A DNA stretch of 64,000 nt from Lacinutrix sp. Its GTDB lineage: Bacteria; Bacteroidota; Bacteroidia; Flavobacteriales; Flavobacteriaceae. Shown here piece after piece: positions 8,345 to 23,606 of the stretch; positions within the stretch are counted from its first letter, which is position 1, and the number at the start of each line of letters is the position of its first letter. The stretch is from contig NZ_JAQWGS010000025.1 of assembly GCF_029238095.1 (NCBI RefSeq), positions 1 through 64,000 of the forward strand, in the 5' to 3' direction. Below the pieces are notes generated by a model, which did not search any database, was not told the DNA's origin, and saw only the letters and a list, made by a program, of their open reading frames with translations. The position numbers and the translations under genes were made by a program.

Positions 8345-9328
8345 ATGTCTGATACAATAGAGAAAGTAAAGTGCCTAATAATAGGATCTGGTCCAGCAGG
8401 ATATACTGCTGCCATTTATGCTGCCAGAGCTAACATGAAACCTGTTTTATATCAAGGAAGTCAACCAGGTGGACAGTTAACAACAACAAACGAAGTTGAA
8501 AACTTCCCAGGTTATCCAGATGGAATTACAGGACCAGCAATGATGATGGAGCTTCAAGCGCAAGCAGAGCGTTTTGAAACAGATGTTAGATTTGGTTGGA
8601 TTACTAAAGTTGATTTTTCTGGAGACGTCCATAAAGTTTGGGTAAACGATGAAAAAGAGATTCACTGTGATACTATTATTATTTCTACAGGAGCAAGTGC
8701 TAAATACTTAGGTTTAGAGTCTGAACAAAAATATTTAAAATTAGGTGGAGGTGTTTCTGCCTGTGCTGTATGTGATGGTTTCTTTTATAAAAATCAAGAA
8801 GTAGTTATTGTTGGAGCAGGAGATAGTGCTTGTGAAGAAGCACATTACTTATCTAAACTGTGTACAAAAGTGACCATGCTAGTAAGACGTGATGAGTTTA
8901 GAGCGTCTAAAATAATGGCTGAAAGAGTTAAAAATACTAAAAATATTGACATACTTTTTAACACAGAGACCGATGCTGTTTTAGGTGATGGACAGGTAGT
9001 TACTGGAGTTAGAGTTGTTAATAACCAAACTAACGAAAAACACGAAATTCCTGCTACTGGATTTTTTGTTGCTATTGGGCATAAACCTAATACAGATATT
9101 TTTAAAGATTATTTAGATTTAGATGAAACAGGTTATATTATTAATGCAAAACCAGGAACTTCTAAAACTAATGTAGATGGTGTTTTTGTTAGTGGTGATG
9201 CTGCAGATCATGTTTACAGACAAGCTATAACAGCTGCTGGAACAGGTTGTATGGCAGCTTTAGATGCAGAACGTTATTTAGCAGCTAAAGACTCTACGTT
9301 CGAAGTGAGTACTTCTACTTACAACTAG
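8345..9328 (+). CDS. trxB: thioredoxin-disulfide reductase
   Basis: A 327-residue cytosolic FAD/NADPH flavoenzyme that reduces thioredoxin. FAD-binding GSGPAGYTAA lies at about 14-23. The redox-active CAVC motif is at residues 140-143, and the NADPH-binding GAGDSACEEA follows at about 157-166. SGDAAD and the ITAAGTGC segment near the C-terminus close the FAD site. Length and motif order are exactly those of low-molecular-weight TrxB. It is monocistronic: a TAnnTTTG element lies upstream and a strong terminator downstream. In this window it belongs functionally with oxyR, dps and sodC. Confidence 0.97.
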   Translation: MSDTIEKVKCLIIGSGPAGYTAAIYAARANMKPVLYQGSQPGGQLTTTNEVENFPGYPDGITGPAMMMELQAQAERFETDVRFGWITKVDFSGDVHKVWVNDEKEIHCDTIIISTGASAKYLGLESEQKYLKLGGGVSACAVCDGFFYKNQEVVIVGAGDSACEEAHYLSKLCTKVTMLVRRDEFRASKIMAERVKNTKNIDILFNTETDAVLGDGQVVTGVRVVNNQTNEKHEIPATGFFVAIGHKPNTDIFKDYLDLDETGYIINAKPGTSKTNVDGVFVSGDAADHVYRQAITAAGTGCMAALDAERYLAAKDSTFEVSTSTYN

Positions 9329-9352: not shown

Positions 9353-9383
9353 AAAAAGCCGAAGCAATGCTTCGGCTTTTTTT
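9353..9383. terminator. bidirectional terminator after trxB
   Basis: A 13-base perfect stem (9353-9365 with 9369-9381, core AAGCCGAAGC) with a 3-base loop, with A and T tracts on the two sides. It can end both the plus-strand trxB transcript and the convergent minus-strand GIN-domain gene. Confidence 0.92.
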
Positions 9384-9400: not shown

Positions 9401-10231
9401 CTACTTTTTTCTCAAAATAGCGTCGTCATCAAATTTGTTTATTTCTATTTTTGGGCTTCCATAAATATACGTTTCTGTCGTTCCAGAAGCTTCAATTACT
9501 ATGTCTTTAGAGGCTTCAATATGAACGTCTGCTCGGCCTTCTGTAATTAAATTACATGTTTTGGTTATTAGCTTTTCAGCTTTTAAAATAGCGGAGTTGT
9601 CTACTTTAATTGTTAATTCGTTTGAGTCTCCTTCAAGTATTGCATTGGCACGTTGAAGCATATCTATTGTAATAGTTTCAGAATTAATTAAAGCTTCAAT
9701 TTTAGAGTTATCACTTAAATCTAGAACCACTGTTTTGGCCGTAATATTAAGTTCGGCTTTGGTTTTTCCAGCAGCTATATAGTTAAAATTCTCTGCTTCT
9801 ATAGTTAAATAGATTTTAGAAGATTCTTTTGTTCTAAGGACTAAGTCTTTTACTTTAATGGTACTTGTTGATGTTAACTGCGCATCTTCTTTTAATTCAA
9901 TAATATTTAAAGAGTCTTTATAGACTACTGTAATTTCCATTGCTTTACTTGATGTAATTCGCTTATTGGTTTTAAAGCTTAAACTTCCTTCTTGTACATT
10001 AAATGTAATAACATCGTGTAAATTATCGTCTGTGTTAATTTCTACAGAAGGTAATTCTCCTTGTTTTATATTAATTTTAAAATTGTCGCTAATTACTAAG
10101 CGATTAAAAGCATCGATTTCTGTAATTTGAGTGGTCACGTTTCTGCTGCCTTTAATTTTTTATGTACTTTGGGAAAAGCTTAAAAATGTTACTAGATAGG
10201 TTAAAATAAGGAGATGTAATTTTGTTTTCAT
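9401..10231 (-). pseudogene. GIN-domain (DUF2807) protein gene with in-frame nonsense codon
   Basis: Read from the ATG at 10229-10231, the first 23 codons give a signal peptide (MKTKLHLLILTYLV then TFLSFSQST). A TAA at 10160-10162 then interrupts the frame. The same frame continues without a further stop for about 250 codons into a domain of repeated short beta-strands typical of the 'head GIN' family (DAFNRLVISDNFKI and similar). Between the stop and the long open part are residues of the kind that open the mature domain (KIKGSRNVTTQ). A single AAA to TAA change would explain it. The GTG at 10136-10138 could start a 245-residue protein without an export signal, but it has no good ribosome-binding context and would make an exported-type domain in the cytoplasm. 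I therefore call it a recent nonsense pseudogene or a sequencing error. Confidence 0.75.
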
Positions 10232-10261
10232 TAGTTATATTAATTGTTTAGCAAAGATATA

Positions 10262-10302
10262 ACAAAAACCATCCCAAACTTTTAAAAAAAATGGGATGGT
10301 TT
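10262..10302 (-). terminator. terminator of the PadR-PspC operon
   Basis: AACCATCCCA (10267-10276) pairs with TGGGATGGTT (10292-10301) around a 15-base A/T loop. On the minus strand the stem is followed by a T-rich tract (TTTTTGTT). It lies downstream of the PspC gene and the short leader-like ORF. Confidence 0.75.
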
Positions 10303-10405: not shown

Positions 10406-12244
10406 TTATTCCTTTTTATTGTCTGAAGTTATTTTAATACCATCCTCATCTATTTTTACTTCCACATTATCGGTTTTACTTTGTACACCATCCTCGTTAA
10501 TTTGTATTGAATTAACATTAGTGGCTGCTTCAATACCTTCAGAGTTTATTTTAAGCTTTGCACCATCTTTATTAATGTTTACATCTATTTCAAAATCATT
10601 ATCATCTTCATCAGGACAATCTATACATATTAACTTCCCATTTTCAACTTTTTGATAATATCCTTCTTTTGTTTTTGAGAGTAAATCTCTGCTAGTATGA
10701 TACCTGTGAGTGTTCTCTTCTGGTAACAAAACACTTCCTATAGGTAAATAAAGCGTTATATTAATTTCTTGATCTCTTCTAGAATCATCGTTTGGAATGA
10801 CAAAATGATTATCTAAGTATAAGGTGTTTCCAGATAATTCATAATTGTAAGTTATACGTTGTGCTCGCTCTTTTACATCTTCAAAAGAGCGTCCTCTCGC
10901 ACTTTTAATGACTTTAATTTTAGCTACACTATCTCTAGTAGACTTAACGGTAAGGTTTACGTCTTGAGAATAAATTAGTCTTTCGCCATTTTCATTATGG
11001 CCTACTTTAAAACTATTAGATTTATTAAAATACTCTGCATAGTTATCATTATTTTTCATTGTTAATATTAGTGTGTCTTGCGCTGTAATGTTTGCAAATG
11101 TTTCATTTTGAATAATTGGCGCTTCTTCACTGTAAGATAAGCCTTGTTTTGCTCCAACAATGCAAATGCCAATTAGTGATAATAACCAGAGACCCAATAG
11201 TGTGAACTTTGCTGCACTACCAATAGATTTTAAATTATTAACTAAAATTTTAAGACCTAAATAGAATAACAATAAAAGCGGAATGCCAATTAAAAAATAG
11301 AGCATTAAACCCACTAGCCAAAACTGAGTGTTTGAGGCCTCTGCTAAAAATAATATGTCCGAATTTCCTAAATCTAAACGGTCTATAAAGTTTGCAGAAA
11401 TAAAAGCAACTGTAGTTGCAATAAATCCAGCAGCTCCTGCCAGCATTAACATAATACCTATAATTTTTGCAAAGATTTTTATGAAGAACATAAAAATGTC
11501 TGCAATGGTATCAAAAAAAGTTTGTGAGCTAGATTTTATTCTATTGGTTTGCTTATTAACATCTATGTTTTTTACAGAGTTAGAAATGTTATCGCTAGCA
11601 GATTCAAAACCTTCCTTTAGTTTATCGCCTGCAGTTTGCAAATTTTGACCAACACTTTCTGAAACGGTACCAAAACCATCACGAATTTTTTTTTCGATGT
11701 TAGAAATGGTTACATTCTCTCCAGTCATTAGAATTTTTTCAGAAGTTGTTTTTGCTTCCGGAACCAAGATCCAAAGTAAAATGTAAATTAATATTCCTGT
11801 TCCAAAACCTAAGACTAGAATAATCCATAATATTCTTACCCAAATAGCATCTATTCCAAAATAATGTGCTAATCCAGACGATACGCCTCCTACATAAGAG
11901 GTTTCTGTGTCTCTGTATAGTTTTTTAGATCTTGCATTGGTATATGTTCTTTGTTGAGGTTCGTCTTCAAAAATCTCATCGTCTACAAGGTAATCTTCAG
12001 GTTGTCCCATAATAGAAATAATGGCTTCAACTTGCTTGTTTCCAATGACTTGTTTTTCATTTTGTATGCGTTCTGAAAATAACTCTGCAATACGTGCTTC
12101 TATATCTGAGATAATTTCAGAACGTCCTTGAGAATCTGTAAATGAACGTTTTATAGCCTCAAGATAGCGCTGTAATTTTAAGTATGCATCTTCATCTATA
12201 TGAAAAAATATACCTGCTAAATTTATGTTGACTGTTTTATTCAT
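10406..12244 (-). CDS. PspC domain-containing membrane protein
   Basis: A 612-residue membrane protein. The N-terminal 90 residues are cytoplasmic with a DIEARIAELF helix. A PspC domain follows at about 105-165 (YRDTETSYVGGVSSGLAHYFGID in its cytoplasmic part, then a membrane segment ending WILVPEA). Two to three further membrane segments lie at about 250-375. The C-terminal 200 residues are soluble and strand-rich, ending in repeats that alternate DxxxIKI/ VEVKIDEDG-type sequence. This is the long fused form found in Bacteroidota, often beside PadR and GIN-domain genes. PspC proteins respond to envelope stress in other bacteria, but a role here is inferred. It overlaps the PadR gene by 8 bases, so PadR probably regulates its own operon. 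Confidence 0.9.
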   Translation of the reverse strand: MNKTVNINLAGIFFHIDEDAYLKLQRYLEAIKRSFTDSQGRSEIISDIEARIAELFSERIQNEKQVIGNKQVEAIISIMGQPEDYLVDDEIFEDEPQQRTYTNARSKKLYRDTETSYVGGVSSGLAHYFGIDAIWVRILWIILVLGFGTGILIYILLWILVPEAKTTSEKILMTGENVTISNIEKKIRDGFGTVSESVGQNLQTAGDKLKEGFESASDNISNSVKNIDVNKQTNRIKSSSQTFFDTIADIFMFFIKIFAKIIGIMLMLAGAAGFIATTVAFISANFIDRLDLGNSDILFLAEASNTQFWLVGLMLYFLIGIPLLLLFYLGLKILVNNLKSIGSAAKFTLLGLWLLSLIGICIVGAKQGLSYSEEAPIIQNETFANITAQDTLILTMKNNDNYAEYFNKSNSFKVGHNENGERLIYSQDVNLTVKSTRDSVAKIKVIKSARGRSFEDVKERAQRITYNYELSGNTLYLDNHFVIPNDDSRRDQEINITLYLPIGSVLLPEENTHRYHTSRDLLSKTKEGYYQKVENGKLICIDCPDEDDNDFEIDVNINKDGAKLKINSEGIEAATNVNSIQINEDGVQSKTDNVEVKIDEDGIKITSDNKKE

Positions 12245-12581
12245 TTTCTTTGGTTTTTGAAGGTGTTACAATGTTAACTGCTGTTTGTAATTCGTCCCAA
12301 GTAGTAGTTAGTTCTTTTAGAAAAAGTTGTCCTGTTTCTGTTAATCCATAATATTTTCTTGGTGGTCCAGATGTGCTTTCTTCCCAGCGGTAATTAAGAA
12401 GTCCTGCGTTTTTAAGTCGTGTTAGTAAAGGGTAAATTGTGCCTTCTACAACAAGTAACTTAGCGTCTTTTAGTGTACCTAAAATCTCGGCTACATACGC
12501 ATCCTCGTCTTTTAAAACAGATAAGATGCAATATTCTAAAACACCTTTACGCATTTGTGCTTTTGTGTTTTCTATTTTCAT
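12237..12581 (-). CDS. PadR family transcriptional regulator
   Basis: A 114-residue winged-helix repressor. The start MRKGVLEYCILSVL, the recognition region TIYPLLTRLKNAGLL and the wing segment PPRKYYGLTETG are diagnostic of the PadR family. It lies first in an operon with the PspC-domain gene, overlapping it by 8 bases (ATG inside the 3' end of padR), so the two are co-translated. PadR proteins usually bind an inverted repeat near their own promoter, which predicts autoregulation in the region upstream of 12581. I could not pick out a single convincing operator. Ligand unknown. Confidence 0.93.
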   Translation of the reverse strand: MKIENTKAQMRKGVLEYCILSVLKDEDAYVAEILGTLKDAKLLVVEGTIYPLLTRLKNAGLLNYRWEESTSGPPRKYYGLTETGQLFLKELTTTWDELQTAVNIVTPSKTKENE

Positions 12582-12756: not shown

Positions 12757-13203
12757 TTATTTTAAAAATTTAATACTAAGTGGATAATTGTATACCTCAC
12801 CATCTCTTGCTCTTAAACTTGCTTTTATTATAAATACAATTTCTAGAATAAAGCCTATAACTGCTAAAAAACCTAAAGAACCACCTATATAGAATAGAGG
12901 CGATGGTTTACTAATATTAAGATGAATGCCATCGAAAAGATTAAAATCCATAAAATCGAATCCATTTAATATACTGAAGGCAAAAAACGGAATCGTGATT
13001 AAACCAATAACTAAAGAATAGATTAAAATGCTTATTTGGAAATTAAGTGCTTGTTTTCCATGCTCATCTATAAACTGAGATTTATCTTTATTAATTATCC
13101 ATAAGACTAAAGGCCCTAAAAAATTTCCAAATGGTATTAGAAATCTGGAGAATATAGATAAATGAATAAAGGTTGCAATGTTGGTGTGGTTTTTCTCGCT
13201 CAT
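12757..13203 (-). CDS. DUF4870 domain-containing membrane protein
   Basis: A 148-residue membrane protein with three predicted membrane segments. The conserved DUF4870 signature is present: HLSIFSRFLIPFGNFLGP, then WIINKDKSQFIDEHGKQALNFQ, which places charged residues between the first two helices. The open frame extends 10 codons further upstream to a TTG at 13233. I chose the ATG at 13201-13203 (MSEKNHTN) because it is an ATG preceded by an A/T-rich spacer, and homologues begin near this point. It is monocistronic. Function unknown. Confidence 0.87.
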   Translation of the reverse strand: MSEKNHTNIATFIHLSIFSRFLIPFGNFLGPLVLWIINKDKSQFIDEHGKQALNFQISILIYSLVIGLITIPFFAFSILNGFDFMDFNLFDGIHLNISKPSPLFYIGGSLGFLAVIGFILEIVFIIKASLRARDGEVYNYPLSIKFLK

Positions 13204-13297
13204 TTTAAAAGTATATAATAGTTGCTTATACAAATATATGTCTAAAAAAAGGTATTATGTTACGCATAGTACTAAAAATTAACATAACTTTAACATA

Positions 13298-14655: not shown

Positions 14656-14799
14656 AATTGTTAATTGTGAATTTTTTAACTGTTAATTTATAGATTTAAC
14701 AATTTTTGAATGGTTTTTTTTACTAAATTTAAATGAATTTAAAAACAAAAGCCTATAACTGAAAACTACTTTTTTATTTAACTAAATCTAGTAATTATT

Positions 14800-14997
14800 A
14801 TGGCAAGAGCAATGTTCGAGTACACCAAAACGATACTCAATAAGGTTAGTTTTGATGCTAATTTGTTTTGTAAGGAGGTACAAAAAGCACTTCAAAGATT
14901 ATTACCTTATGAAATTGAAGAGCTCAAGATTTTTATAGAATCTATAGTCAATAAAAATCCAGACTTAAACCAATGTTTAATCTATTTAAATGAATAA
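14800..14997 (+). CDS. small uncharacterised protein
   Basis: A 65-residue acidic/helical cytosolic protein. It has no signal peptide and no membrane segment. The pattern (KTILNKVSFDANLFCKEVQKALQ.. then LLPYEIEELKIFIES) is all helix and contains one Cys. It begins at an ATG after an A/T-rich 144-base gap and ends just before a strong terminator, so it is an independent small gene and not a chance ORF. I recall similar short proteins in flavobacteria but cannot name a family. Confidence 0.7.
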   Translation: MARAMFEYTKTILNKVSFDANLFCKEVQKALQRLLPYEIEELKIFIESIVNKNPDLNQCLIYLNE

Positions 14998-23571: not shown

Positions 23572-23606
23572 CTAGAATTGTATTAGGCTTTCAAAGAAAA
23601 GAAAAT

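Follow-up and report, generated by a model that had tools for sequence, protein, structure and literature searches.

A single in-frame stop codon between signal peptide and GIN domain in a Lacinutrix gene: a possible young nonsense allele

When an otherwise well-preserved gene in a draft genome is split by one stop codon, has the gene been lost, has a base been misread, or is the stop passed by the ribosome? The question is raised by a gene for a signal peptide and a DUF2807/GIN domain, 276 codons plus a terminal TAG, at positions 9401..10231 (minus strand) of a 64,000-nucleotide stretch of a Lacinutrix contig, referred to here as the window. An ATG (10231-10229), a TAA (10162-10160), a GTG (10138-10136) and the terminal TAG (9403-9401) share one minus-strand frame; the TAA (10160..10162, minus) is codon 24 and is followed by 252 open codons up to the terminal TAG (10231..9401, minus). 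Read through, the frame 10231..9401 contains no other stop before its end. The coordinates and the reading of a TAA-split frame given by the initial annotation are thereby reproduced, as is its statement that no further lesion is seen in the gene. Upstream of the TAA lies a signal-peptide-like segment, judged by eye, of 21 residues ending in FSQ (10169..10231, minus). The remaining open frame, which the mechanical list of open reading frames starts at the GTG (9401..10138, minus), encodes 245 amino acids and, as the initial annotation had also held, lacks an export signal. This 245-residue product matches Pfam DUF2807 (PF10988) with an E value of 7.6e-34 (117.5 bits against a cut-off of 24.2), in a first stretch at 9692..10111 (minus) and a second at 9452-9754. 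In this copy the export signal and the GIN domain are not in one frame, the TAA lying between them; the gene as assembled is broken. The severed export signal weakens the case for a functional copy but leaves its DUF2807 origin untouched.

The comparison with relatives bears on the integrity of the frame. A search of 60 genomes, counting the source genome, gave matches in 38, including each of the 12 others of the genus (G001-G012). In every one of these 12 the frame runs unbroken from Met through a signal-peptide-like segment into the domain, and glutamate stands at the position equivalent to the TAA; the ten other-genus loci read at this position all have a sense codon, which is not always glutamate. 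The suggestion that the ancestral codon was AAA (lysine) is not supported, glutamate being found in 12/12. Read through, the frame aligns over 276/276 residues, at 74-80% identity, with the open 276-residue orthologues of all six congeners compared in this way, a full-length match which shows it to be more than chance. In a wider scan of named genomes by alignment, the best 80 of 167 relatives were kept (some being the same genomes as G001-G012), and all 80 have a full-length body preceded, without a break in the frame, by a Met that lies 22-60 residues upstream. The stop at codon 24 is directly observed in the assembly and is present in no orthologue examined; since an upstream Met and the domain are joined in one frame in every orthologue compared (12/12 within the genus and the best 80 of 167 relatives), the gene is rightly described as interrupted. 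This genome has three DUF2807 loci, the two others both open, whereas 11 congeners each have four or five; the lower count may reflect loss or loci within the unassembled 11%.

The surroundings of the gene are in order. Upstream on the minus strand lie an intact DUF4870 gene (12757..13233), an intact gene for a PadR-like regulator of 114 residues (12237..12581) and a PspC/LiaI-LiaF-TM/Toastrack gene (10406..12244), so that the order is PadR gene, PspC/LiaI-LiaF-TM/Toastrack gene, GIN gene. An intact gene for a pyridine-nucleotide-disulphide oxidoreductase, presumably thioredoxin-reductase-like, converges from the other side (8345..9328, plus). The PspC, PadR and DUF4870 neighbours are open in 6/6 congeners, and the oxidoreductase gene in all four whose stretch reaches it. 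A promoter-like motif, TATCTTTG (10252..10259, minus), stands 20 bases before the ATG, with similar motifs in eight aligned relatives; we take it to resemble the Bacteroidota -7 element TAnnTTTG. A hairpin between the PspC gene and the GIN gene (10266..10302, minus; z -3.94 for the folded stretch) is probably a terminator, and a terminator-like hairpin follows the GIN gene (9353..9381, minus; z -6.02 for the folded stretch). Judged from sequence, no damage is apparent in the promoter-like motif, the terminators, the domain or the neighbours. A 95-residue reading-frame match at 14752-14988, which comes from one congener, also holds one stop.

The family provides a putative function. A profile of 12 sequences finds a solved relative in PDB 3pet, a 'putative adhesin' of the PF10988 family (E 5e-5), from which this copy differs in that a stop separates it from its signal peptide. 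The available part of one report describes a DUF2807 member in Porphyromonas gingivalis as an adhesin (PMC10949514); that role belongs to the Porphyromonas member, and for the present orthologue group it is putative. DUF2807 has been united with DUF4097 and DUF2154 as Toastrack and linked with PspC and PadR, as far as the consulted portion of that study goes (PMC11237479), an arrangement resembled here by the GIN gene with its PspC/LiaI-LiaF-TM/Toastrack and PadR neighbours. The same portion proposes a membrane-proximal intracellular platform (PMC11237479), whereas the relatives examined here carry a signal-peptide-like segment, which makes export more likely.

Selection along the lineage bears on the age of the stop. 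Our own codon model was fitted to 12 sequences over 276 codons, leaving out the orthologue of G008 (L010), in which a frameshift close to the C-terminus breaks the reading frame; G008 is a single contig of 84% completeness, and indel errors are possible there. Omega is 0.056 overall, and 0.037 on the branch leading to the window against 0.058 elsewhere (p 0.22), crude figures on a long branch of about one substitution per codon. An omega of 1 on the window branch is rejected (LRT 41.3); in twice the log likelihood, a branch value fixed at 0.06 loses 1.9 and one fixed at 0.08 loses 5.0, which puts the 95% limit near 0.07. Crude as these values are, constraint is directly seen: the gene was under it for nearly the whole of the branch. 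Relaxed selection was looked for on this branch, and an omega of 0.037, which is not raised, fits a very young loss or none. The low value implies a stop that arose very recently, does not really exist or does no harm.

The reading favoured here, with a probability of roughly 0.55, is that the stop is a real and very young nonsense allele. On this reading one substitution created the TAA from a conserved glutamate codon that stood three residues beyond the signal peptide, and left intact the rest of the gene, which encodes an exported DUF2807/GIN (Toastrack-type) protein and neighbours a PadR-PspC set. Translation would then end in a 23-residue stub, and a restart at the GTG, 21 bases past the stop, may yield a GIN domain that lacks the export signal and is left in the cytoplasm. 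We infer that living cells carry the stop and have lost the exported product. Such an allele is to be expected now and then, since congeners, isolate and draft, also carry some nonsense-hit genes (G004:73609, G002:98979 and G004:70884).

The strongest competitor, less probable but far from negligible, is that a base is wrong in the assembly, or that a rare variant entered the consensus, and that the gene is intact in the organism. The source assembly is an incomplete draft of 2.32 Mb in 27 contigs, 89% complete, and the absence of decay in the GIN gene fits error equally well. The most telling case is proS (C5:24261-25769, minus; L206:4261-5769), the single match in the genome, which carries an in-frame TAG at C5:25568. 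The TAG falls after 56 residues from Met, at a lysine in 6/6 congeners (89-92% identical, one match each). A cell without prolyl-tRNA synthetase should not live, and a second copy in the missing 11% of the genome is possible but unlikely. A stop in the only match to an essential gene leaves two options, one or more false bases in the assembly or a stop that is passed, so that the assembly probably holds at least one stop of this kind that is not a true null. Some of the stops in this assembly are then probably false, which counts against a nonsense allele in the GIN gene.

Base error is also favoured by several other genes that carry one clean stop here and are open in congeners. Of the 45 gene clusters in the window that have congener counterparts to compare, the GIN gene alone shows a stop where each of several orthologues (6/6) has none. 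Over the whole contig, 92 clusters contain two internal nonsense codons, in the GIN gene and in a serine-hydrolase gene, and no frameshift, a pattern that substitution errors fit at least as well as decay. Stops near 23574, 28025, 33056 and 41405 were rejected as lesions, each preceding the Met at which the aligned relative starts, and were taken as 5' extensions; early stops in contig clusters 37565, 44218, 83663 and 108352 were set aside on the same ground, without individual study. By reciprocal alignment the congeners showed a single isolated internal stop among 408 clusters, in the receptor-like gene at G004:73609, compared with two among 89 here. These counts leave out, for this genome, one 5' extension and, for G012, five adjoining or gap-placed stops.

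A reference-free screen extended the comparison to 1,255,363 bases, or 54% of the genome. It was tuned on this genome: its first version ranked the GIN stop low, and known positives then set looser rules. The strict form gave five hits in these 1,255,363 bases and none in 667,565 bases of five congeners, a difference in the direction expected of base error but not significant (about 0.12, by hand arithmetic on these lengths). The loose list holds 18 hits here, the GIN gene appearing only there and not among the strict hits, and eight in the five congeners. An excess of stops in this genome over its congeners is not proved by the strict screen.

The strict hits differ in kind; the proS stop is one of the five. 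The PF00144/DUF3471 serine-hydrolase gene (C25:98589-100142; L132:14589-16142) has an in-frame TAA at C25:98835, which presumably falls at the serine of the SxxK motif. The gene is open in five of six congeners at 84-86% identity, the sixth having no full orthologue; it lies below every named beta-lactamase cut-off shown, and its branch omega of 0.063 against 0.038 elsewhere is not significant. A lipoprotein-like gene (C4:33647-34516, minus; L192:13647-14516) has an in-frame TAA at C4:34174, where the aligned congener copies have sense codons. By contrast, two further strict hits probably represent real decay with further damage, which counts against error as a general explanation: an fn3/MAM repeat gene (L159:612-2309), with a stop at C5:1914 and probably a frameshift as well, and an AHSA1-domain gene at C12:5466 (L166:5319-5726), which has no clear start, is open in G002 and is absent from five others. 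On the loose list, C27:71395 also looks interrupted and finds no support among congeners. Congeners, too, show nonsense-hit genes by other routes, and their loose list includes the real, further decayed genes G002:98979 and G004:70884.

It is improbable that the stop is real but passed or bypassed, whether by readthrough to the full exported protein or by reinitiation at the GTG to give a working cytoplasmic GIN domain. The low omega on the window branch, the in-frame GTG shortly after the stop and the proS stop, which ought to be lethal if obeyed, would all suit such a bypass; on the other hand, the relatives, by their sequences, all export the protein. Still less credible is the broader idea that natural suppression or readthrough lets this Lacinutrix keep genes with an in-frame TAA or TAG at work (those for the exported GIN protein, the serine hydrolase and prolyl-tRNA synthetase), none of them being broken. 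In the part of the genome scanned, no suppressor tRNA, altered release factor or reduced stop use was seen: a scan of the window and 45 stretches gave no tRNA with a suppressor anticodon, and stop usage is ordinary, TAG ending 141 of 802 long reading frames here and 86 of 440 in congeners. A broken RF1 was considered and discarded; the one TAG in the prfA match sits, on translation, just before the ATG, so the gene is open. The prfA match of congener G007 also reports one TAG. Within the part of the genome scanned, stop suppression has no support.

Least probable of all, and contradicted by the relatives, is a natural start at the GTG with nothing broken: the mechanical reading frame does begin there, but relatives have an upstream in-frame Met (12/12 within the genus and all of the best 80 of 167), and GTG 10138 aligns with a valine codon that is GTT in seven, GTC in two, GTA in two and GTG in one of the 12 same-genus relatives.

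The favoured nonsense allele resembles the single-nonsense pseudogenes of other bacteria, which likewise have one in-frame stop, no other lesion and open orthologues; it differs in being known from an assembly alone, in which the proS stop raises the chance of a false base. Literature searches on Lacinutrix pseudogenes returned nothing on this gene, judged by title, and one combined query on nonsense mutations and pseudogenes in metagenome-assembled genomes gave no match. Bacterial genomes and draft assemblies alike can be expected to contain single nonsense codons, and either explanation is ordinary, with nothing out of the common for a wild bacterium sequenced to draft level. Where proS of the same draft is also interrupted, one clean stop does not yet amount to gene loss. 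If real, the allele would be a natural knock-out of an exported partner of a PspC/PadR-linked gene set.
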